From the IMG/VR virus record IMGVR_UViG_3300025030_000224, positions 1 through 41,231 of that record: a stretch of DNA of 41,231 bases. One strand, given 5' to 3'. Source of the stretch: a virus. A program made the position numbers and the translations under genes. Below the pieces are notes generated by a model, which was not told the origin of the DNA, did not search any database, and saw only the letters and a program-made list of their open reading frames with translations. This document shows, in pieces, positions 4,148 through 41,132 of the stretch (positions are counted from its first letter, which is position 1; each line of letters begins with the position of its first letter).

Positions 4148-5866
4148 ATGTGGCAGCGGCAATTGGTCATCGAGCTGAAAGAGGCAAAATCGCGTGAGAG
4201 AAAAACGGTGCTGGAGCGGTACCAGGGAATGTACGGCTACAGCAAAGAGCATCTCTACCGGATAGCCCGCGAGTTCGGTTTCGTGTCGGGCCGTAAAGAG
4301 CGCGAGGACAAGGGGCTGTCGGTCCTGGCCGAGGAGCAGATCGATTTCGTCGCTGCCTTCATCAATAAGTCGGCCCGGGAGAACAAGGGGTCATTCATGC
4401 CGGTGGAGAACGCCATGGAAATCGCCATAGACAACAACATCCTGCAGCGCGGGGAGATATCGGTGGGCGGCATGGGGCGCATCCTGCGCGACCGCCAGAT
4501 GGACGCCAAGCGGCAGAACGCTCCTACCCCGCACACGGAAATGCGCTCGCTGCATCCGAACCACGTGCATCTGGTCGACTCCTCGGTCTGTATCCAGTAC
4601 TACCTGGCCGACGGCGGGCTGAAGATCATGCGCGAGGACGAGTTCTACAAGAACAAGTTCGAAAATTTCAAAAAGGTGAAGGAACCCCTGCAGCGTTATG
4701 TACTGACCGATCATTTTTCCAGTTCCCTCTTCGTCAAATACTACGTGGCGGCGGGCGAGACGGCCGAGAACCTGTTCGACTTCCTGGTCTGCGCCTGGGA
4801 AGCCAAACAGGATGAGCGCTTCCCCTTTCGCGGGGCCCCGCTGAAGATGCTGATGGACGGCGGCTGCCACGCCAAGGCCCGCGCCATGGGCGCCGGATTC
4901 TGGGACGGGCTGGACATCGATATCATCCCGGGAAAGACCGGAAACTCGCGGCGCCAGGGGGCCGTTGAGGTGCATCACAACATTTGGGAGATGTGGTTCG
5001 AGACCCGCCTGCGCTTCGATCCGGCCTCCACGGTGGAGGAACTGAACCTGAAGGCACGCGACTTCTGCATCTGGTTCAACGCCACCAGGAAGCATACGCG
5101 GACCCAGATGACGCGGCTCTCCTGCTGGATGCTGATCAAGAGCGAGCAGCTCCGGGAGCTTCCGGAGCGCGCCGTACTGCAGGATTTGATGAACAAACCG
5201 GAAGAGACCCGCACGGTTACCAACCACATGATTTCCTACGAGGGCAAGTCGTTCAACCTCAAATTCGCCAACATCCCGCACGGTAGCAAGGTGAAGGTGA
5301 TCAAGAACATCTGGAAGTGGAAGGACTCCATCATCACGGTGTCCTACGATAACAATCTCTTCGATGTCCAGTCGGTGGAAAAGCTCCCCGCGGAGCTGGG
5401 CGGGTTCTCGGCGCATGCCGCGATCATCGGCGAGGAGTACAAGGCCCAGCCGCATACGGTGACCCAGCAGGGCATGAAGCGGGCGGAAGAGCTGGCCTAT
5501 GCCAACGTTCTTACCCCGGAGATGAAGCCCGAGGAGAAGGCCAAGGCGATCAAGAAGGCGACTCCTTTTGCCGGGATGAACGTGTTCGGCGGCTTCGCGG
5601 ACAAGCTGGGGAACATGGCCGCGCTGCCCAAGCAGGGCACGGTGATCGAGATGGGGCGCGAGATCGTGAGCCGGTCGATACCGATTACCGAGTTCTTCAA
5701 GCGGCTGCGCGACGAGGTCGGGCGGATCGCCCCGGATATGAACCGGGAGCTCCGCGCGATCTACGGCGAAGCCATAGATGCAGCCGAGGCGGCGCAGGTG
5801 ATAGAGCAGATTGCAAGCGGCACTTGGGCCGCGGGATGTGATACCCGGCAGGCACAGAACCTCTAG
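4148..5866 (+). CDS. A: Mu-type DDE transposase (gpA-like)
   Basis: A 572-aa protein, close in size to MuA (663 aa). It catalyses strand cleavage and transfer that integrates the phage and drives replicative transposition. The catalytic triad is visible: D144 (HLVDSS), D237 (LKMLMDGG) and E274 (GAVEVHHNIWE), with 36 residues between D and E as in retroviral-type integrases. The N-terminal ~120 residues are helical with a helix-turn-helix-like YSKEHLYRIAREFGF, suited to end binding; residues ~345-400 fit the beta-barrel that follows the catalytic core. The C-terminal ~80 residues match the region that contacts the B ATPase. It is followed after 30 bases by the B gene, the canonical Mu A-B pair. 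Confidence 0.93.
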   Translation: MWQRQLVIELKEAKSRERKTVLERYQGMYGYSKEHLYRIAREFGFVSGRKEREDKGLSVLAEEQIDFVAAFINKSARENKGSFMPVENAMEIAIDNNILQRGEISVGGMGRILRDRQMDAKRQNAPTPHTEMRSLHPNHVHLVDSSVCIQYYLADGGLKIMREDEFYKNKFENFKKVKEPLQRYVLTDHFSSSLFVKYYVAAGETAENLFDFLVCAWEAKQDERFPFRGAPLKMLMDGGCHAKARAMGAGFWDGLDIDIIPGKTGNSRRQGAVEVHHNIWEMWFETRLRFDPASTVEELNLKARDFCIWFNATRKHTRTQMTRLSCWMLIKSEQLRELPERAVLQDLMNKPEETRTVTNHMISYEGKSFNLKFANIPHGSKVKVIKNIWKWKDSIITVSYDNNLFDVQSVEKLPAELGGFSAHAAIIGEEYKAQPHTVTQQGMKRAEELAYANVLTPEMKPEEKAKAIKKATPFAGMNVFGGFADKLGNMAALPKQGTVIEMGREIVSRSIPITEFFKRLRDEVGRIAPDMNRELRAIYGEAIDAAEAAQVIEQIASGTWAAGCDTRQAQNL

Positions 5867-5896
5867 GTGCCAGGCCATTCAATGGAGGTGTGAACG

Positions 5897-7153
5897 ATGC
5901 GGAAACTGGAAAGCAGGGTGACTCCCTACACGATGGAATTTCAGCCGCTGATTCTGAAGCAGATCGCCCTGGACTGTGACGTGTCCCAGGGAGAACTGGC
6001 AAAGGCCACAGGCGTGAGCAGAACCTCGATGAATCTCTGCTTCAACAAGGGGTATATCCCCATGACGGTGCCGGGTTTCAAGAGCGACACCGAGGAGTAT
6101 CTGGCTACCAATCCACGTGCAACTCAGTGGCTCATGGAGCGCGGCCTGAAAATCTCGGACATCTGGAACACCGGCGAAGGGAAGGAGTTACGCCATGTAA
6201 TGCCGGCGGGAAACGGCGACCGGATGGTGCAGGGGAAGAAAGCAAAGCGGCAGGGTCTGGCGACAGGCTTGCCGGATCAGATTGTCATGAAATGGGAGGT
6301 AGAGATGATTTCCGAAGATACAAAGAGGCATTTCAAGCTGTTTCGTAACCCTTTTGTCGCAGATGTGGAGAAGAGCGGGGATATTTTCCGCTCGGATGAA
6401 CACCGCTACATCGAGATGGCCATGCTGGACGCCGCTAAAAACGGCGGTTTTCTTGCGGTTGTGGGCGAGGTCGGCAGCGGCAAAACGACCATGCGCCGCG
6501 AGGTGATGGAGCAGCTCCGCAAAGAGACCAACGTGATGGTGATCTTTCCCCAGATCATCGACAAGAGCCGGGTCACGGCGTCATCGATCTGCGACGCGAT
6601 CATCCTGGACCTGTCCGAGGAGAAGCCCAAGGTCAAGCTGGAGCAGAAAACGCGCCAGGTGCAGCGGCTGATGATGGACCGCTCGCGCGCCGGCTTCCAG
6701 GCCTGCCTGATCATCGAAGAGGCACACGACCTGAGCACCCAGACGCTCAAGTATCTCAAGCGCTTCAGCGAGCTCGAAGACGGCTACAAGAAGCTCCTGG
6801 GCATCATCCTGATCGGCCAGACGGAACTCAAGAACATGTTCAACGAAAGCCAGCATGTCGAGATGCGTGAGGTTATCCGGCGCGTCCAGGTGGCCGAGAT
6901 CCGCGGGCTGAACGGGAACCTGAAAGACTACCTGCGGCTCAAGTTCAAGCGGGTCGGCGGCGACATCGACAAGATCATGGATGAGGCTGCGATCGTCGCC
7001 CTGGGCAACCGGCTCACTATGAACGACTCCAGGAACAAGCCGGTTTCCCACGCCTACCCGCTCCTGGTGAACAACTACGTGGCGCGCGCCATGAACCTCG
7101 CTTGCGAGCTCGGCGAGACGGTCATCACGGAAGAAGTGGTGAACGGGATATGA
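5897..7153 (+). CDS. B: MuB-like AAA+ ATPase, target DNA activator
   Basis: A 418-aa ATPase. Residues ~15-60 hold a helix-turn-helix (DVSQGELAKATGVSRTSMNL) as at the N-terminus of MuB. The AAA+ domain has Walker A GEVGSGKT (190-197) and Walker B ACLIIEEAHD (269-278), as in ExeA/MuB-type ATPases. MuB polymerises on target DNA, activates the transposase and gives target immunity. It is longer than MuB (312 aa), mainly in the linker between the N-terminal domain and the ATPase. A GGAGGTG site precedes the start, and its stop overlaps the start of the next gene (ATGA). Confidence 0.9.
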   Translation: MRKLESRVTPYTMEFQPLILKQIALDCDVSQGELAKATGVSRTSMNLCFNKGYIPMTVPGFKSDTEEYLATNPRATQWLMERGLKISDIWNTGEGKELRHVMPAGNGDRMVQGKKAKRQGLATGLPDQIVMKWEVEMISEDTKRHFKLFRNPFVADVEKSGDIFRSDEHRYIEMAMLDAAKNGGFLAVVGEVGSGKTTMRREVMEQLRKETNVMVIFPQIIDKSRVTASSICDAIILDLSEEKPKVKLEQKTRQVQRLMMDRSRAGFQACLIIEEAHDLSTQTLKYLKRFSELEDGYKKLLGIILIGQTELKNMFNESQHVEMREVIRRVQVAEIRGLNGNLKDYLRLKFKRVGGDIDKIMDEAAIVALGNRLTMNDSRNKPVSHAYPLLVNNYVARAMNLACELGETVITEEVVNGI

Positions 7154-30961: not shown

Positions 30962-31722
30962 TGGCTAAACCGATCATCCTGGCTGATAACCGCTTCCTCG
31001 ATGCGCCGCCGACTGCCTCAGGTACCGCTGCAGGCTTCGACGCGCTGCACATCGCCGACGGCCGCTCCTACACATTCTGGCAGGCTCCCGCGGCAGGGAC
31101 CTGGTATCTGACGGTGCAGTCCCCGGCGGCTGCCAAGGCCGATTGCCTGGGGATCATCGGCCACAACCTGGGCAGCGCGGCGGCGCTCGTTTCGGTGGAG
31201 CGCTCCATGGACGGGGCGACCTGGTCGACTGTGATCGCCCCTTTCAAGCCGGTTAACGACAAGGCGCTGCTGAAGAACTTCACGTCTAGATACGGCCTTT
31301 ACTGGCGACTGAAGATCGTCACTGCCGGCAGCGCCCCTTATCTGGCGGTTGCCATGATCGGCTCCCGGATCGAGTTCCCCTTCCCCCCCAACTCGCCGTT
31401 TGTGCCGTACTCGGCAAGCGTTGTCGAGGAATCGGCCACCTCCAAAACCGGCAACCCGCTCGGGACGGTGGTGCGCTATTTCCCAATCGATATCCTGCCT
31501 GCCTTTTCCCTGATCGATCGCGTCTGGGTGGAGCAGACCTACCGGCCCTTCTGGGAGGGACACGCCCGGTACCGCCGCTACTTCTTCTGGGCCTGGGACA
31601 CCGACACCTATCCGGAGATGGTCTTCTTCGTGAAGGATATCGGGAAATACGACCCTTCCGTGTCGGTGCTGGCTTACTACGACTCGCTTAAGCTGCAGCT
31701 GCAGGGGGTGATGGAACTGTGA
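30961..31722 (+). CDS. Tail-tip protein, distal-tail-like beta domain
   Basis: A 253-aa protein whose first half reads as a discoidin/galactose-binding-like jelly roll (DALHIADGRSYTFWQAPAAG, TWYLTVQSPAAAKADCLGII, VSVERSMDGATWSTVIAPF). The second half has aromatic-rich strands (VWVEQTYRPFWEGHARYRRY, TDTYPEMVFFVKDIG). Proteins in this spot in D3112/B3-type phages form the distal tail ring and connect the tube to the tip. The next gene begins with a GTG overlapping its stop. Confidence 0.6.
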   Translation: MAKPIILADNRFLDAPPTASGTAAGFDALHIADGRSYTFWQAPAAGTWYLTVQSPAAAKADCLGIIGHNLGSAAALVSVERSMDGATWSTVIAPFKPVNDKALLKNFTSRYGLYWRLKIVTAGSAPYLAVAMIGSRIEFPFPPNSPFVPYSASVVEESATSKTGNPLGTVVRYFPIDILPAFSLIDRVWVEQTYRPFWEGHARYRRYFFWAWDTDTYPEMVFFVKDIGKYDPSVSVLAYYDSLKLQLQGVMEL

Positions 31723-33488
31723 CCTATCTCGCCAACCTCACAGCGCCATGCCGCGTGCCGATCACCCTGGTCAGGGTCACCCTGGACTTTTGTTCCCGCT
31801 CCTTCGGGGTGGCGCCCTGTACGGGAGTCGGCGAGCCCTGCTACAACACCTATCACACCTGCAAGGTCGCCGCGGCCTTTGACAAGAGCAGCAAGATCTA
31901 CGAATTCAGCTCGGCCGATGCGCCGATCCCGTGGCCAGGCCCCAGACCGTATCTCAGCTCGGTGAGCTACCTCCCTACCGAGATCACCAACACGGTGACG
32001 GTGACCGGACGAATCAAGATCGATTTGATCGACGAGCCTGACGGCGATATCGGCATCGATCCCTACGTGCAGCAGAGAGCGTCGGTCCAGGGAACCTACT
32101 TCAAGAAGCTCATAGCCCGTAACCCGAACTACAAGGGTCGGCTGCTGGAGATATACGAGGGATTCCTGGGCGACAGCTTTGAGCAGTTCCAGTTGCGGGC
32201 CAACGAGCCGCTGGAGCTGGTGACGGTCCGGGGGGAGATCACGACTCTGCAGACCGTCGATCTGCTGAAGGGTATCGGCGACATCGAGGTCCCGCCACAG
32301 CAGGATACCAAGCTGTTGGGGGATATCGCCGGTGACGCGCTGGAGATGATCCTGGACGATACCGCCGATGTGCCGCTGCTGCCTGATGCCGGGTACGTCA
32401 AGATCGGCGAGGAGATCATCCAGTACGCCGCGATTGACCGGGCGCAGCGCCGGCTCCACGGATGCACCAGGGGAGTGATGGGAACCATCGCCCTGGGGCA
32501 CGGCGCGAAGGATGCCGTGCAGATCTGCCGCTATTACCCGCCGGCCAACCCTTTCGACATCCTGAAGGAGCTGCTCCTGGTCGACGCTGCACTCCCTCCC
32601 GGACAGGTCGACAGCGCCGCGATCGATCATTGGCGCGACTGGCCCGGCGGCGAGGTCGCTATGACCGCGTTCCTGGACAAGCCGACCAAGCTCTCGGATT
32701 TGCTTTTGGGCGTCAACTCTCAGTCGAAATCCCTTTCCAGCTCGACCGATTTGCCGCCGGAAAGCTTCGGCCTGGTCGATCTGCTTGACTGCAAGATCTG
32801 GGTTGCCGAGAACCTGAAGGTGACCCTTTCCCGCAACATCCCGAACGCACCTGGGCGCAGCTACCGGAGCGTTACCGATGCGGCGACCGTGGTCTCCGGC
32901 TCTGCCAGCGTGGACATGAACGAGAAGATCCGGGTGACCAGGTCGGTGCTCTACTGGGACAAGGACGTGCTGGGCGCGGTCGACACCGCTGAGAGCTACG
33001 TGCAGCGCGACGTCGGGGTGAACCTCGATGCGGAGCGGGAATACGCCGCGACCATCACGGAAAGAATCTATTGCCGCTGGCTGAAGAGCGGGATCATGCA
33101 GGAGGAGATCCTCGCCGACTACATCAGGGATCTGCTGGCGCGCCGGCTCTTCAACCGCCGGGACGCAGCGCCGGTCATCACGCTGTCGGTCGAGCTGAAG
33201 GACAGCGAGATCCTGACGGGTAGCTTTGTCACTCTCTTCACCGACGAGCTGCTGCAGCCGGACGGCACGCCGATCCACACGCGGGCACAGGTCATTTACC
33301 GGGAACCGCGGGGGAGCAAGATAGACCTGAAGGTGCAGCGGCTGAACGTGCGGCGGTCGGCGTTCTATGCGCCTGAGGATGCTCCGGTGTACCAGGATGC
33401 GACGGCCGCGCAGCAGGAATACGGCGGGTTTTATTGCGATGACCTGGGCAAGATGCCCAACGGTGACGTGGGCTTTTTTTATTACTGA
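31719..33488 (+). CDS. Tail hub protein with conserved Cys motif
   Basis: A 589-aa protein starting with GTG 31719. Residues ~25-50 hold CS..FGVAPCTG then EPCYNTYHTCK, the Cys pattern seen in tail hub proteins of siphophages and gene transfer agents, where it can hold an Fe-S or zinc centre. The central and C-terminal parts are beta-rich domains (YVKIGEEIIQYAAIDRAQRR, LHGCTRGVMGT; later VLYWDKDVLGAV). It probably forms the hub at the tip of the tail. The metal is inference; the Cys spacing is visible. Confidence 0.7.
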   Translation: MTYLANLTAPCRVPITLVRVTLDFCSRSFGVAPCTGVGEPCYNTYHTCKVAAAFDKSSKIYEFSSADAPIPWPGPRPYLSSVSYLPTEITNTVTVTGRIKIDLIDEPDGDIGIDPYVQQRASVQGTYFKKLIARNPNYKGRLLEIYEGFLGDSFEQFQLRANEPLELVTVRGEITTLQTVDLLKGIGDIEVPPQQDTKLLGDIAGDALEMILDDTADVPLLPDAGYVKIGEEIIQYAAIDRAQRRLHGCTRGVMGTIALGHGAKDAVQICRYYPPANPFDILKELLLVDAALPPGQVDSAAIDHWRDWPGGEVAMTAFLDKPTKLSDLLLGVNSQSKSLSSSTDLPPESFGLVDLLDCKIWVAENLKVTLSRNIPNAPGRSYRSVTDAATVVSGSASVDMNEKIRVTRSVLYWDKDVLGAVDTAESYVQRDVGVNLDAEREYAATITERIYCRWLKSGIMQEEILADYIRDLLARRLFNRRDAAPVITLSVELKDSEILTGSFVTLFTDELLQPDGTPIHTRAQVIYREPRGSKIDLKVQRLNVRRSAFYAPEDAPVYQDATAAQQEYGGFYCDDLGKMPNGDVGFFYY

Positions 33489-34725: not shown

Positions 34726-35003
34726 ACATCCTTGAACTGACCGCCGGCGACACCAAACCGACGAAATGCCAATACACCGAGAACCTGACAGGCCACGTCA
34801 TCGTGCTGCAGATCGGCTACCCGACCCCGCTGCAAAAGGTAGCCGTCATCACCTCAGCGATCGGCGGGACATTCGAGTTTCCGTGGGCGATCAACGACCT
34901 GCAGCAGGGCGAGTGGGACGCCGACCTGATCATCACAGATGCAGACGGAAAGATGGAGACCACCGATAAATTCAGGATCAACATCGAGGGGAGGATAGCA
35001 TGA
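34722..35003 (+). CDS. Small beta-rich protein, baseplate-type domain
   Basis: A 93-aa protein (MNILELTAGDTKPTKCQYTE, then VAVITSAIGGTFEFPWAIND and GEWDADLIITDADGKM). The start-to-end strand pattern resembles the N-terminal attachment domain of phage upper-baseplate or receptor-binding proteins (BppU type), often used to mount fibres on tails. It overlaps both neighbours by four bases, so it is translated together with the Thr-rich protein and may anchor it. Confidence 0.5.
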   Translation: MNILELTAGDTKPTKCQYTENLTGHVIVLQIGYPTPLQKVAVITSAIGGTFEFPWAINDLQQGEWDADLIITDADGKMETTDKFRINIEGRIA

Positions 35004-36514
35004 GCCGGATGGTAGCGATCAGCTCTTCACGCCCGTCCGTGAGCATTGACCCGCGCACCGGGATCTTGATGGTTCGGGGATTCGGTAGTGAGCCCGGCCT
35101 GACAGTCGGCGAAGCCTATAGCCAGGCAGAGGAAAACGCTTTTTTTGCCGCCGGGTACAGCATGGTGATACGTATGGATCTGCTGGTAGCAACCACAACT
35201 ACAGCCGCGCCTGGTACCACGACCGCAGTGCCGACTACTACGACTACGACTGCTGCGCCTGGGACCACAACGACCACAACGGCAGGGCCGGATACAGTGC
35301 CAAACTCCTTCAGTTTTAGCGACGTGAACAACATCTCGGTGAGCACACTATACATATCCGACACTATAACCATCTCTGGTATTAATGCGGCTGCCGCGAT
35401 TTCAATTGCCGGGAATGGAGGGGAATACCGGGTGAACGGCGGTGCCTGGAGGAGTACCTCAAGCACGGTAAGCAATGGCGACACTGTGACTCTCCGTATG
35501 ACATCGTCTCCGTTCAATTCCGCAATAAGCAGCACCACACTGACCATCGGCACTGTATCTGACGTTTGGAGCATGACGACCGAAACTGCGGCAACGACCA
35601 CTACGGCAGCGCCGACGACTACGACTGCCGCTCCGACAACCACGACTACGACCGCTGCTCCGACAACTACGACCACCACGACAACCACTGTCGCTCCGAA
35701 TGTCGCGCCCACTTCGACGATCGTATTCAGCGACTTCTCTGAACCTGTTACGACCACGACTACTGCGGCGCCGACAACTACGACCACGACGGCAGCTCCG
35801 ACCACGACTACCACCACGGCGGCTCCGACAACCACGACTACGACCGCGGCTCCGACAACTACGACTGCTGCTCCGACAACTACGACCACCACGACAACCA
35901 CTGTCGCTCCGAATGTCGCGCCCACTTCGACGATCGTATTCAGCGACTTCTCTGAACCTGTTACGACCACAACTACTGCGGCGCCGACAACTACGACCAC
36001 GACGGCAGCTCCGACCACGACTACGGCGGCTCCAACGACTACGACCACCACGACCACTACTACGACTACCGCAGCGCCGACAACGACGACCACGACTACT
36101 ACGGCCGCGCCAAATGTGGCCCCGACATCAACTATAGTTTTTAGTGATTTCAGCGAGTCTGGCGGCACTACTACGACAACATCAGCGCCGACGACAACCA
36201 CGACCGCTGCGCCTGGCGACATAACGCCAAATACTTTCAGTTTCAATCCTGCTTATGATCAGAATTTCAGCACTCTGATCGAGTCGAACTCTATTGCCAT
36301 TGCGGGCTTGAGTTCCACTGCGGCTGTCTCCATCTCCGGAGGCTCGTACTCGAAAAATGGCGGTGCCTATGTCAGTTCGGCGGGTACCGTAACTAACGGT
36401 GATACCTTGAAGGTAAGGGTTCTAACTTCCGGTGGCTATGATGAAACGACCACTGCAACGCTCACTGTCGGAACGTTTTCAGCTCCTTTCAGTGCAACGA
36501 CATATTACGAATAG
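35000..36514 (+). CDS. Thr-rich mucin-like adhesin or fibre protein
   Basis: A 504-aa protein. Residues ~1-62 form a small N-terminal domain (SVSIDPRTGILMVRGFGSEP). Two similar Ig-like beta domains flank the middle: ~100-195 (NSFSFSDVNNISVSTLYISD) and ~407-504 (NTFSFNPAYDQNFSTLIESN). Between and before them lie long Thr tracts of TTTTTAAP type, with the block APNVAPTSTIVFSDFSE repeated three times. Such Thr/Pro/Ala tracts look like mucin O-glycosylation targets and stiff linkers. There is no signal peptide, so it should be part of the virion. Probable phage adhesin and likely substrate of the 39381 enzyme. Confidence 0.6.
   Translation: MSRMVAISSSRPSVSIDPRTGILMVRGFGSEPGLTVGEAYSQAEENAFFAAGYSMVIRMDLLVATTTTAAPGTTTAVPTTTTTTAAPGTTTTTTAGPDTVPNSFSFSDVNNISVSTLYISDTITISGINAAAAISIAGNGGEYRVNGGAWRSTSSTVSNGDTVTLRMTSSPFNSAISSTTLTIGTVSDVWSMTTETAATTTTAAPTTTTAAPTTTTTTAAPTTTTTTTTTVAPNVAPTSTIVFSDFSEPVTTTTTAAPTTTTTTAAPTTTTTTAAPTTTTTTAAPTTTTAAPTTTTTTTTTVAPNVAPTSTIVFSDFSEPVTTTTTAAPTTTTTTAAPTTTTAAPTTTTTTTTTTTTAAPTTTTTTTTAAPNVAPTSTIVFSDFSESGGTTTTTSAPTTTTTAAPGDITPNTFSFNPAYDQNFSTLIESNSIAIAGLSSTAAVSISGGSYSKNGGAYVSSAGTVTNGDTLKVRVLTSGGYDETTTATLTVGTFSAPFSATTYYE
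35654..36024 (+). repeat. Duplicated Thr-codon repeats
   Basis: A 104-bp segment (35654-35757) recurs without change at 35867-35970, 213 bases on; with one mismatch the match continues ~50 bases further. The unit encodes Thr/Ala/Pro tracts and the block ending TSTIVFSDFSEPV; a third, diverged copy of this block lies near 36110-36165. The exact match points to recent duplication, and the 213-bp offset equals 71 codons, so the frame is kept. Confidence 0.8.
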
Positions 36515-36523
36515 GAGGATTGT

Positions 36524-37519
36524 ATGGATGCAAAATTGACGGGTGCAGTTAGCGGAATTCAGTCCGGGGATGCAGTGACGCTGATTGAGATAGTGTGGAA
36601 GCTGGGAGGCGAGACTGAAGCAGCAGCGCAAGCCGCAGGCCGGGGATGGATACTAACAAGTTATGCCAACAGAGCCGCGCTGTCTGCAGCGATGACAGCG
36701 GCGGGAAATACCCTCCCAGCAGGAATGACGGATTCCTTTATTACATACGGTGACCCTGGGATCGCTGCAATAGCCGCATTTCCAAGCGCGGGATATGCGC
36801 TGTCTTCAGTAAACCTCGTCTCAGGACAGACCTATACGCCTGCTGTCAGGGTGACAGAGAGCAGAAGCGGATCTGGTGCTTATGCTGGAGGGTGGTCTGC
36901 AGCTTCACCGTTTATTGTTTGGTCTGTTTATGACAGCTTCACAGACACTGATGGCACACTCCTAAACAATCACATCAGTAACACCGGGCATGGGTGGGTG
37001 AAATACCTGAAGTCTGGCGCCGCGAATGCTGAAGAACCAGGAACAGCCGTTATTGCATCTGGCGTTCTGAAAATGGGAGATGTTACAAATTGGTCTTCCT
37101 ACTACAACGGCTGGACACCTCCAAGTGCAAACTATACGGTTCAGCTAGTTTTCACGATCAGTACATTAGGGAACAGCGCTGGGGGCGTGATGGGTAGAGT
37201 GGATCCCGCTACTGGCACTTTTTATGGTTTTCAGCTGATGGGGCAAAGCGCAGGAAATTACTACCTGTTTAAGAACGTGAATGGCGTGCAGACTGTATTG
37301 GCGACAGGAACTATAAGCACCCCCGCTGTCGGCAACTATACCGTAGCTCTGGTCATGAATGGCACGTCTATCGTTGGCAAAATAAACGGTACGGTTATAG
37401 CTTCCGTTACTGATGCATCGATAACTGCTGCGGGCAAAGCTGGTATCAGAGGCGATTGGACAGGTGTGGCTCCTGCGGGGATAACGCATATTGATTCCTA
37501 CATGGTTTTTACTAACTAG
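36524..37519 (+). CDS. Concanavalin-like receptor-binding candidate
   Basis: A 331-aa protein behind AGGAGG. Residues ~1-130 (KLTGAVSGIQSGDAVTLIEI, GYALSSVNLVSGQTYTPAVR) form a fibronectin-like or fibre-mount part. Residues ~135-330 read as a concanavalin/LamG-like jelly roll (VYDSFTDTDGTLLNNHISNT, TVQLVFTISTLGNSAGGVMG, YYLFKNVNGVQTVLATGTIS). Such domains bind sugars. It is clearly less GC-rich than the head genes, a sign of recent exchange. Likely host receptor binder. Confidence 0.6.
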   Translation: MDAKLTGAVSGIQSGDAVTLIEIVWKLGGETEAAAQAAGRGWILTSYANRAALSAAMTAAGNTLPAGMTDSFITYGDPGIAAIAAFPSAGYALSSVNLVSGQTYTPAVRVTESRSGSGAYAGGWSAASPFIVWSVYDSFTDTDGTLLNNHISNTGHGWVKYLKSGAANAEEPGTAVIASGVLKMGDVTNWSSYYNGWTPPSANYTVQLVFTISTLGNSAGGVMGRVDPATGTFYGFQLMGQSAGNYYLFKNVNGVQTVLATGTISTPAVGNYTVALVMNGTSIVGKINGTVIASVTDASITAAGKAGIRGDWTGVAPAGITHIDSYMVFTN

Positions 37520-37593: not shown

Positions 37594-39393
37594 ATGAAAT
37601 GTATCCTTGCGTTATTTGCTGTGCTGTTTGCACTGGCGGGATGTGGAATAACCATCCCCATTTTGACCAATGACGTAATAAAACCACGCTATGAGGATAA
37701 ACTGATGCAAACTTTCTTAGCTAATGACTCAGGTATAACATATATCGGCAGGTGGACTGATACCATGTCAGGGGGCAGCCCAATAAGAGTTGCTATCTCC
37801 AGTGGGTGTCGCATTAGGCTCCGATTTACTGGTACCTCTTTGGCGCTCAACTTTGCGGTATGGGCCTCTCCAACTGGACCAAACTTTATTGAATATGCCG
37901 TAGACGGTGGAGCTTGGATCAGAACATCTATCAATGGCCTTTCGACGCTGTCACTGGCCTCTGGATTACCCGATACGGAACATACCGTCGAAATCTGGTC
38001 TATTGCCGGTAGCTATTATAGGTGGGACACTTTAGAAGGGGTCCGGGTCAAAAGTTTTAGTATCGATGACGGCCGGACTATATCACCATGGCCCACTGGC
38101 CTCCCTAAAATGTTGACTCTGGGAGATAGTATCGCTAATGGTGACCTAGTGCTCGCGGACGGCGGCACTAGCGGACGTTTATCTGTTTCAAATCAGCTGG
38201 CAGCGATATTAGGTTATGAGAACTGGAACCATGCCGCCGGGGGGACAGGGTTCTACGGTACTCAACCAGCTAATGGATACCCTGCCACTCAGATCAATTA
38301 CCTCTATAAGTCCGCAGGGGTAGTACACTCTGATCCTGTATTTGACGTTGTGTTCATTGAAGCGATCCAAAATGATGGCACTGCTAACAGGTACGCTGAA
38401 TACACTACTTTGCTGTCTCGAATTATAGCGGATCAACCGACAGCTAAAATTTTCTGCCTGGGTCTAATTTTCCCCGACCCGCAGGAACAGACCTCAGTTC
38501 AGGCCGCAGCAGCCGCTTATGGGGCCACCTATTTGGCGACTAGCGGATGGGTCTTTTCCCACCCCGAAGCTATCAATCAAAAACATCCCGACGTCCAAGG
38601 CGCTGCTACTATCGCGGCGTATATCAAGCCGACTGTTGAATCTGTGACAGGAGTGATCTCTACAACCACTACTGGTGCTCCGACCACTACGACCACGACC
38701 ACCGCGGCGCCAACCACGACCAGCGCGGCTCCGACCACGACGACAGCGTCTCCGACTACTACCACGACCACCACGGTGGCACCGGTAATTGAAGCCCCAG
38801 TTCTAACCACCGTAGTCGCTGGCAACGGCCAGATCACCGTTAACTGGACCCACAGCGGCGCCAACTTTTTCACAGCATACCTCTCCACCGAGGCCGCCCC
38901 GACCTCTACAAGTTACGAACGTCGGGTGCAGAATCTGCATACTTCTGCTCGCAGCTACACTTTTACAGCTCTAGCAAATGGTGATCTCTGCTATGTAAGA
39001 GTGTCGGCAATGATCAACGGGCTCGCTAGTAGTTTAAGTAATACTTTGACTGCCACTCCCGTCGGGGCAACTACAACCGCATCTCCCACTACCACGTCAG
39101 CGCCGACCACGACAACAACGCCTGCTCCAGCCACGACCACTGGTGCTCCGGCCACAACGACTACTACGACAACGTCCACTCCAACCACCACTACGACAGC
39201 ACCGACCACGACCACGACTCTGCCTCCCGTCAAGCCGATCCGCTTCAGTATTGGAGGCTACACCATTCAGATAACCAAAAACGAATCAGGCTCCCTCCGG
39301 ATTAAGACTTCCGATGGGGTGATCGGCGTCTCTTTGAACGACACCGGTCCGATAAAGATCAAAACAAGCGCGGGGACAAAATGCCTAGGTTAA
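37594..39393 (+). CDS. SGNH hydrolase lipoprotein with Thr-rich linkers
   Basis: A 599-aa protein. A lipobox (FALAGC, Cys-17) indicates export and lipid attachment. Residues ~40-155 form a jelly-roll N-terminal domain as in carbohydrate esterase family 2. Residues ~170-350 are an SGNH/GDSL hydrolase: LTLGDSIANG (Ser-179), GGTG (~216) and IQND (~260); the His is in NQKHPD (His-331), but the usual Asp three residues before it is Asn-328. Then come Thr/Pro/Ala tracts (~354-400), a fibronectin III domain (~400-487), more Thr tracts and a ~55-residue C-terminal domain. It may deacetylate host surface sugars. The next gene starts inside its last codons. Confidence 0.7.
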   Translation: MKCILALFAVLFALAGCGITIPILTNDVIKPRYEDKLMQTFLANDSGITYIGRWTDTMSGGSPIRVAISSGCRIRLRFTGTSLALNFAVWASPTGPNFIEYAVDGGAWIRTSINGLSTLSLASGLPDTEHTVEIWSIAGSYYRWDTLEGVRVKSFSIDDGRTISPWPTGLPKMLTLGDSIANGDLVLADGGTSGRLSVSNQLAAILGYENWNHAAGGTGFYGTQPANGYPATQINYLYKSAGVVHSDPVFDVVFIEAIQNDGTANRYAEYTTLLSRIIADQPTAKIFCLGLIFPDPQEQTSVQAAAAAYGATYLATSGWVFSHPEAINQKHPDVQGAATIAAYIKPTVESVTGVISTTTTGAPTTTTTTTAAPTTTSAAPTTTTASPTTTTTTTVAPVIEAPVLTTVVAGNGQITVNWTHSGANFFTAYLSTEAAPTSTSYERRVQNLHTSARSYTFTALANGDLCYVRVSAMINGLASSLSNTLTATPVGATTTASPTTTSAPTTTTTPAPATTTGAPATTTTTTTSTPTTTTTAPTTTTTLPPVKPIRFSIGGYTIQITKNESGSLRIKTSDGVIGVSLNDTGPIKIKTSAGTKCLG

Positions 39394-41057
39394 CCATAGG
39401 AATGGCGTCATACAACAACTTCCAAGAGGTCTGGTTCACTCTCCAGGCGCTGCGCATGTACCATGACCTTACCGACACCGAGGTATTGGTTATCGACAAC
39501 TACGGCGACGACACCCTGCGCGACTTCATCGCCAGTTGGCTGAGCCCGCAGGTGCGTTACGAGCGGTACACCGAGCGCCAGGGGACCGCCGCCCCTCGCG
39601 ACCAGGTATTTGCCCAAGCCCGAGGAGAGTGGGTCATGTGCATCGACTCCCACGTTATGCTTCCCCCTGGCGCAGTAGCCCGGTTCCGGGAATGGTGCGC
39701 CGCACATCCGGATTGCCGGGACCTGCTGCAAGGTCCGATGCTCTACGATGATCTTTCCCAAATGGCAGACGCGTTTCAGGATAAGTGGGAAGGCAGCATG
39801 TGGGGGACCTGGCGCGGAGCGCAAGTCTCGACTGAGCAGGAACCATACGAGATAGAGATGATGGGCCTCGGCCTCTTTGCCTGTCGCAAAGACGCCTGGC
39901 TTGGCTTTAATAAGGATCACCGCGGTTTCGGTGCCGAGGAAGGATACATCCACACCAAATTCCGGCAAGCCGGCCAGCGCACCCTTTGTCTCCCCTTTCT
40001 GCGCTGGGTGCATTACTTCCATACCAGGAACGGGAAGGTGACTTGTCCTTACACTCCTACTCAGGAAGACAAGATCCACAACTACCTAACCGGTTTTGCC
40101 GAGCTTGGCCTAGATCCCGCCCCAGTCTACCAGCACTTCGGGATAACCCCGCCGCCGCGAGCCGTGAAGATCACAAACATCCAGATCGACCCCAACGCGA
40201 ACTGTGGCAGTAAATGCTGGTTTTGCCCGGTGCGTTATACCATGCGACCAGCAGGGCAAATCATGCCTCAGCCCCTCTTCGAGCGTCTCCTGGACGGCAT
40301 ACTCGACGGCATCCAGCAGGGAAGCATTGCGGAAGACTTCACCCTCTGGCTTAGCTCCTACAACGACATCCTCCTAGATCCGCTTCTTGCCGAGCGTCTG
40401 CAGGCCCTTCGCTCCCGCGGTATGAAATTCTGTTGCCTGACTAACGGGATCGGATTGCTGAAGCACCACGAGCTTTTGCACGAGTACCGCGACGTGGTCG
40501 TATGCTACTCGGTCGATCTCCCAGCAGGCAATGCGGAGAGCTACGCCGCCCACACCCTGAACTCGGCAGCGACGTTTGATCAGATCATCAAAGGCCTACG
40601 AGCCCTGCACGCGCTCGACCCCGCCCATTACAGCCAAGCCGTCCACGTCGGAGTCAACGGGGCCCACGATGCCGACTGGAGCCGGAAGCAGATCCTCTAT
40701 GACCTCCTTGAAGGAGATACCGACCGACAGCTCCATGAGTTGCAGACCCTGCTCCCGATATATCCACGCGTCGAGGCGATGAGGCCCCTCTGTGATCGCG
40801 CTGGGCACCTGAGTCAGCACGCCATCGATAACGCCGTCGATCGTCCCGGAACAGCAGGCTGCAATCGCCTGACCGAATGGCTGCACGTCAACAGTTTTGG
40901 TCAAGCTTACACCTGCTGCCAAGACTACCTGGAGGAGCACAAGTTTGCAGATCTGAGTGAGCTGACAGTTCACGAAGCACTCACATCCGCTCCATCTGAG
41001 CTGTTTGATCGGACACGGCGAGAACTCTGCAGCAAGTGCACGTTTAGCGCGCAATAG
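39381..41057 (+). CDS. Glycosyltransferase / radical-SAM SPASM fusion
   Basis: A 558-aa two-domain enzyme. Residues ~1-235 are a GT-A glycosyltransferase: TIGMASYNNF, TEVLVIDNYGDD, then MCIDSHVMLP with Asp-89 and His-91 (DxH motif as in mucin-type polypeptide GalNAc transferases), and GFGAEEGYIHTKFRQAG near 182-198 as the acceptor/base region. Residues ~258-558 are a radical-SAM enzyme: CGSKCWFC (C275, C279, C282) binds the SAM cluster; CNRL, TCCQ and CSKC at the end (C494, C512, C513, C550, C553) form a SPASM-like domain. It overlaps the SGNH gene by 13 bases. I infer it modifies Thr-rich tracts of phage proteins; substrate and sugar are unknown. Confidence 0.7.
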   Translation: MPRLTIGMASYNNFQEVWFTLQALRMYHDLTDTEVLVIDNYGDDTLRDFIASWLSPQVRYERYTERQGTAAPRDQVFAQARGEWVMCIDSHVMLPPGAVARFREWCAAHPDCRDLLQGPMLYDDLSQMADAFQDKWEGSMWGTWRGAQVSTEQEPYEIEMMGLGLFACRKDAWLGFNKDHRGFGAEEGYIHTKFRQAGQRTLCLPFLRWVHYFHTRNGKVTCPYTPTQEDKIHNYLTGFAELGLDPAPVYQHFGITPPPRAVKITNIQIDPNANCGSKCWFCPVRYTMRPAGQIMPQPLFERLLDGILDGIQQGSIAEDFTLWLSSYNDILLDPLLAERLQALRSRGMKFCCLTNGIGLLKHHELLHEYRDVVVCYSVDLPAGNAESYAAHTLNSAATFDQIIKGLRALHALDPAHYSQAVHVGVNGAHDADWSRKQILYDLLEGDTDRQLHELQTLLPIYPRVEAMRPLCDRAGHLSQHAIDNAVDRPGTAGCNRLTEWLHVNSFGQAYTCCQDYLEEHKFADLSELTVHEALTSAPSELFDRTRRELCSKCTFSAQ

Positions 41058-41101: not shown

Positions 41102-41132
41102 AAAAGGGAGAGCTGATTTAGCTCTCCCTTTT
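41102..41132 (+). terminator. Late operon terminator
   Basis: AAAAGGGAGAGCT loop GATTT AGCTCTCCCTTTT: a 13-bp stem with A-run before and T-run after, 45 bases behind the last gene. It works in both directions and closes the phage transcription unit near the right end. Confidence 0.85.

Follow-up and report, generated by a model that had tools for sequence, protein, structure and literature searches.

A glycosyltransferase joined to a radical-SAM/Twitch enzyme in a Mu-like phage, a candidate for mucin-type O-glycosylation of Thr-rich tail proteins

The fusion gene and its radical-SAM half

The DNA analyzed here (the window) is the whole of virus record IMGVR_UViG_3300025030_000224, 41,231 nucleotides long. 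Its MuA- and MuB-like transposition genes and Mu-like gene order place it among the Mu-like transposable phages, with a phrog_310 transposase, phrog_296, Mu Gam, terminase (TerL), portal, head, and tail genes all present. The left end (positions 1 to 240) opens with TG and contains recurring GTCATA-like words, a pattern that would fit the ends of Mu-like phages. The final gene starts with ATG behind a GGGGA-like ribosome site 5 to 6 nt upstream and encodes a glycosyltransferase (GT) domain and a radical-SAM enzyme in one continuous frame (Table 1). Three Pfam domains were identified in its product, each exceeding its gathering cutoff: Glycos_transf_2 (residues 6 to 105, 1.5e-13), Radical_SAM (residues 274 to 432, 5e-9), and SPASM (residues 494 to 554, 2e-6). 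The earlier note on this DNA had described a GT-A domain with a DxH motif and a CxxxCxxC motif in a single chain, an arrangement confirmed by the Pfam matches, the motifs, and the unbroken frame.

The same fusion, at full length and with 86% identity, is found in a second virus record (L002). With synonymous sites near saturation, dN/dS between the two is 0.055 overall, 0.028 for the GT half, and 0.084 for the radical-SAM half, indicating that both halves are maintained by purifying selection. This relative and the dN/dS values rule out a chance arrangement or a frame artefact. A scan with the radical-SAM half recovered the L002 record only, no relatives of the fusion were found among isolated phages and plasmids, and 398 Pseudomonadota genomes yielded no fusion. 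In the literature that we searched, no GT/radical-SAM fusion is described for a phage.

Table 1. Features of the fusion gene and the neighboring tail genes in the window
Feature	Position	Strand	Basis or remark
Tail protein marking the tail cassette	31719..33488	+	phrog_11439, 3.9e-48
Thr-rich tail protein, 504 aa, 163 Thr, TTTTTAAP and NVAPTSTIVFSDFSE repeats	35000..36514	+	phrog_4924 short tail fiber, weak
Tail-fibre-like protein between the two Thr-rich genes	36524..37519	+	Lectin-like C-terminal part, weak (sub-threshold Pfam)
Thr-rich protein, 599 aa, 108 Thr	37594..39393	+	Overlaps GT start by 13 nt
C-terminal tag, ~56 aa, two G-x-[LIV]-x-I-x-T-x-x-G units	39223..39390	+	Shared among upstream Thr-rich proteins
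Bifunctional GT/radical-SAM-Twitch enzyme, 558 aa	39381..41057	+	Single frame; final gene of the Mu-like genome
GT-A domain, aa 1-254, GalNAc-transferase-like	39381..40142	+	Pfam, fold model, ~25 relatives
DxH motif D89-S-H91	39645..39653	+	D and H invariant in 24 aligned sequences; aligns to GALNT10 DSH
H211 of WVH	40011..40013	+	Invariant; aligns with third Mn ligand (VGH) of GalNAc-transferases
Radical SAM core, aa 274-432	40200..40676	+	Pfam; CX3CX2C at C275/279/282
Twitch-type auxiliary Fe-S domain, aa 494-554	40860..41042	+	Pfam SPASM; CX12GX4C...CX2C
Intrinsic terminator-like hairpin and T run closing the operon	41106..41132	+	Read directly in the sequence

The CX3CX2C motif lies inside the Radical_SAM match, as expected of the radical SAM superfamily. 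The auxiliary domain has the cysteines C494-X12-G-X4-C512 ... C550-X2-C553, and the protein ends five residues later. SPASM domains are defined by a seven-cysteine motif, CX9-15GX4C-gap-CX2CX5CX3C-gap-C, and Twitch domains are truncated versions with ligands for one auxiliary cluster (PMC6231123). By this definition, the four cysteines of the fusion make its C-terminal domain a Twitch type, with ligands for one predicted auxiliary cluster; the "SPASM-like" cysteines of the earlier note are thus where it placed them, within the Pfam match, but they are only four of the seven that a SPASM domain has. Sequence searches gave weak NCBIfam similarity to the peptide-modifying enzyme CbpB, and the only PDB sequence match was to BtrN, at a nonsignificant E value of 0.16. 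The structure prediction proposed earlier gave a poor AlphaFold model for this half (pLDDT < 60), yet its viral fold matches include a phage radical-SAM protein. On a Nocardia plasmid (L203), the gene cluster around a distant radical-SAM/SPASM relative (24%) also encodes a GT, a class I methyltransferase, and an arylsulfotransferase, an arrangement that is no more than suggestive.

The GT domain and its partner domains

Structure prediction was more informative for the GT half (pLDDT about 90), and Foldseek returned GT27 polypeptide GalNAc-transferases as all of the best 50 folds in the PDB, several of them peptide bound (best E value, 1.1e-12). In the HMM alignment to GALNT10, DSH pairs with DSH, FGGEEG with WGGEQYE, and WVH with VGH, and D89, H91, E186, W209, and H211 are invariant among 24 aligned members of the GT family. 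In GalNAc-T2, manganese is bound by Asp224, His226, and His359 (PMC4432651), so that the alignment points to D89, H91, and H211 as the Asp-His-His metal ligands of the phage enzyme. The assignment made from the letters alone, a DxH GT of the polypeptide GalNAc-transferase type, is borne out by the fold search, the GALNT10 alignment, and this triad. The GT-A fold is most like GT27, although the profile also matches GT2 enzymes: the N-terminal third finds ordinary GT2 enzymes as its best PDB sequence matches, and Pfam likewise reports a GT2 type, whereas the PDB sequence matches that span the whole domain are GalNAc-transferases. The C-terminal half alone matches only GALNT7 and GALNT10, weakly, and there is a weak profile match to SunS (E value, 7e-4). 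The ricin-type lectin domain characteristic of GT27 has no Pfam match in the fusion, where the radical-SAM/Twitch part stands in its place. Because this lectin domain is absent from the GT family, we call the enzyme GalNAc-transferase-like, one that would work like GT27, without classing it as a member.

About 25 relatives of the GT domain were collected from about two dozen virus contigs and five MAG contigs, with identities of 32 to 90%; none was found in records of isolated phages. The domain at the C-terminal side of the GT varies. It is a second GT2-like domain in L003 and L028 and a methyltransferase-like domain in L008 and L023 (in both cases below the Pfam gathering score), a GT-like domain by eye in L021, and a domain with EHDVLYP or EDDVLYP motifs in L004 to L007, L009, and L011, which stays unclassified after AlphaFold modeling of the L005 type (pLDDT, 48.6). 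In other relatives, the GT stands alone. Second GTs and methyltransferases are glycan-tailoring types, suggesting the same role for the radical-SAM partner.

Thr-rich proteins encoded beside the GT

The Thr-rich proteins that the earlier note placed just upstream of the fusion are indeed encoded there, one of them overlapping its start (Table 1). The product between them resembles the L002 protein at 5052-6113 in its N terminus. To define Thr tracts across loci, a mucin-like window was taken as 24 residues with at least 11 Thr and at least 20 T/S/P/A. Such windows occur in 19 of 26 GT loci, including 13 of 13 fusions with any partner, compared to 1 of 44 random viral loci of about equal total length. 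All 108 are on the same strand as the GT and none on the opposite strand, and the closest is usually 220 to 750 bp upstream of it. The seven GT loci without them all have stand-alone GTs, some on short contigs. Tracts of six Thr are likewise found in 15 of 22 GT records but only 2 of 27 related Mu-like records that lack the GT (Fisher P = 1e-5) and 1 of 44 random records (P = 9e-9); with close relatives merged, the values are 8e-5 and 2e-7. In the opposite direction, the GT was found in only 3 of 80 records with TTTTTAAPTTTT repeats, many of which are fragments, plus one weak match, meaning that Thr tracts do not in general require the GT. The co-occurrence survey proposed earlier thus reveals a strong directional link, with the qualification that Thr repeats are common without the GT. 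Both records of the radical-SAM fusion have a Thr-rich partner, contrary to the widespread occurrence without one that the earlier note had named as evidence against its reading.

Several further observations were made on these tracts. A repeated PTSTIxFSxFSE motif between them is present in three GT-bearing loci (window, 35700-36250; L002, 4600-5039; L008, 4751-5578) and in 0 of 80 other Thr-repeat loci. In L024, L026, L027, L034, and L037, several short virion-type genes close with a TTTTTAAP-like stretch, which looks like a glycosylation tail added to different proteins. Three records found via Thr repeats alone, L118 (G076), L112 (G070), and L103 (G061), hold a more distant GT subfamily (TIGMATYDDYDGV...). 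On a Thermomicrobiales chromosome, a stand-alone GT of this family is preceded, at a distance of ~180 bp, by the gene for a Cys-rich protein that has several Thr tracts and a Tat-like N terminus (L040, 5478-8822).

At ten loci, the gene before the GT encodes a Thr-rich protein and runs 4 or 13 nt past the start of the GT gene. At least eight of these ten upstream proteins share the C-terminal tag, and two more have it in weaker form. The tag pattern was detected in 8 of 26 GT loci but in none of 80 Thr-repeat loci. A second scan, which used the tag as its query and favors close relatives, returned GT-bearing records only. The region before the Thr tracts varies, with an SGNH hydrolase in the window, L006, and L007 and none or an unclassified region elsewhere. 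The overlapping protein of the window is composed of a lipobox-like signal (MKCILALFAVLFALAGC, behind an AGGTGG ribosome site), a CE2_N/SGNH hydrolase part, Thr tracts, and the tag. This layout of carbohydrate-active domain, Thr-rich stalk, and tag recalls enzymes with O-glycosylated linkers. A lipobox-like signal is unusual for a phage tail or virion protein. The tagged protein of L006 also has a signal-like start, which is absent by eye from the other complete tagged proteins (L002, L005, L007, L008, L011, L021, and L023). A match to phrog_7918, a virion neck/appendage family, was also recorded.

Function of the enzyme and comparison with known systems

Taken together, these data strongly suggest that the GT glycosylates Thr, and its acceptors are fairly likely to be the stalks of phage tail proteins. 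The predicted metal site of D89, H91, and H211 would allow the GT-A domain to move a sugar from a nucleotide-sugar onto Thr residues of the TTTTTAAP tracts that the phage's own tail proteins contain, with the overlapping, tag-bearing protein as the first candidate and the tag as a putative docking or assembly element. The radical-SAM/Twitch half may then modify the glycan, for example by oxidation, epimerization, or dehydration of a sugar carbon, a tentative assignment made by analogy with the GT and methyltransferase partners. We give the combined scheme, a phage mucin-type O-glycosylation enzyme whose radical-SAM half tailors the attached glycan, roughly even odds. The earlier interpretation is partly supported: it stands in its GalNAc-transferase-like GT and its link to Thr-rich partners, but not in the SPASM label, and the tracts it relied on also occur without the GT.

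Two alternatives retain glycosylation of a Thr-rich protein. Does the radical-SAM/Twitch half modify the polypeptide, at Thr or its neighbors, in the manner of RiPP maturases? Many Twitch/SPASM enzymes act on peptides (PMC6231123), and the CbpB similarity points the same way; given that the other partners in this position are GT- or methyltransferase-like and that no RRE-type peptide-binding domain was matched by Pfam in the fusion, we consider peptide modification unlikely. A comparably low probability is given to an acceptor that is not part of the virion but an exported Thr-rich lipoprotein on the surface of the lysogen, which would receive its sugar in the cytoplasm ahead of export. The lipobox-like start behind its ribosome site, the CE2_N/SGNH domain, and the signal-like start in L006 would fit such a protein, but the remaining complete tagged proteins show no such signal by eye, the genes are located in the tail operon, and phrog_7918 is a virion family.

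Other readings uncouple the enzyme from the Thr tracts and appear less probable still. The right end of Mu-like genomes is a usual site of accessory genes, and the position of the fusion there, its GT2-type sequence matches, and the CE2/SGNH domain of its neighbor would suit lysogenic conversion, in which the enzyme alters a host surface glycan (LPS or capsule) and has no part in the function of the Thr-rich tail genes beside it. Such a role accords poorly with the GT27-like fold, with a GT start that overlaps a Thr-rich gene bearing a conserved tag, and with a Thr-tract link that spans unrelated phages. Alternatively, the tracts could be flexible linkers that travel with the GT in exchangeable tail modules with no enzyme-substrate relation, as the many phages with Thr repeats and no GT would allow (GT in 3 of 80 such records). 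This idea, about as improbable as lysogenic conversion, is at odds with Thr windows in 13 of 13 fused members, with a tag and gene overlap specific to GT-bearing loci, and with a GT near a Thr-tract protein even on the Thermomicrobiales chromosome. As for a role in DNA modification, no hypermodification gene was identified among those larger early genes that were compared with Pfam and PHROG.

O-glycosylation of virion proteins has, to our knowledge, barely been studied in phages, and mucin-type initiation is regarded as eukaryotic. The fusion enzyme probably decorates the tail of its own virus with modified sugars, something that is not known to have been described in this form. It is possible, if somewhat doubtful, that tailed phages hold a whole family of mucin-type O-glycosyltransferases with GalNAc-transferase chemistry, tag-paired Thr-rich tail-spike stalks as substrates, and swapped tailoring domains that diversify the glycan. 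Such a family could account for some Thr-rich tail stalks of environmental phages. The enzyme is compact and encoded beside its likely substrate, and its partner domains are swapped in nature, so that the question can be tested directly. Should the radical-SAM half act on the glycan, the glycosyltransferase would contain a radical tailoring step of its own, of use for making new glycopeptides.

The phage enzyme shares with GT27 (GalNAc-T2, T10, and others), whose members transfer GalNAc to Ser/Thr and build mucin in animals, the GT-A fold, DxH motif, third His ligand, and GGE segment, and Thr/Pro/Ala-rich, mucin-like candidate acceptors are encoded nearby; it differs in being phage encoded, lacking the ricin-type lectin domain, having only ~15 to 19% identity, and being fused to a radical-SAM enzyme. 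SunS of prophage SPbeta, a peptide S-glycosyltransferase, is likewise a prophage-derived GT that modifies a peptide, but it acts on Cys of a bacteriocin and has neither a radical-SAM domain nor Thr tracts. BtrN-type Twitch dehydrogenases have the same CX3CX2C motif and a four-cysteine Twitch auxiliary site, while the fusion shows no significant homology to BtrN and has its radical-SAM part joined to a GT. For virion glycosylation itself, the nearest comparison is with mycobacteriophages Che8 and Rita, where, according to the citing account (Freeman et al. 2023, cited in PMC11256854), phage-encoded glycosyltransferases are also linked to glycans on phage structural proteins; the proteins described there are those of the capsid, in contrast to the tail Thr tracts, DxH GalNAc-transferase-like enzyme, and swapped tailoring domains of the phages studied here.
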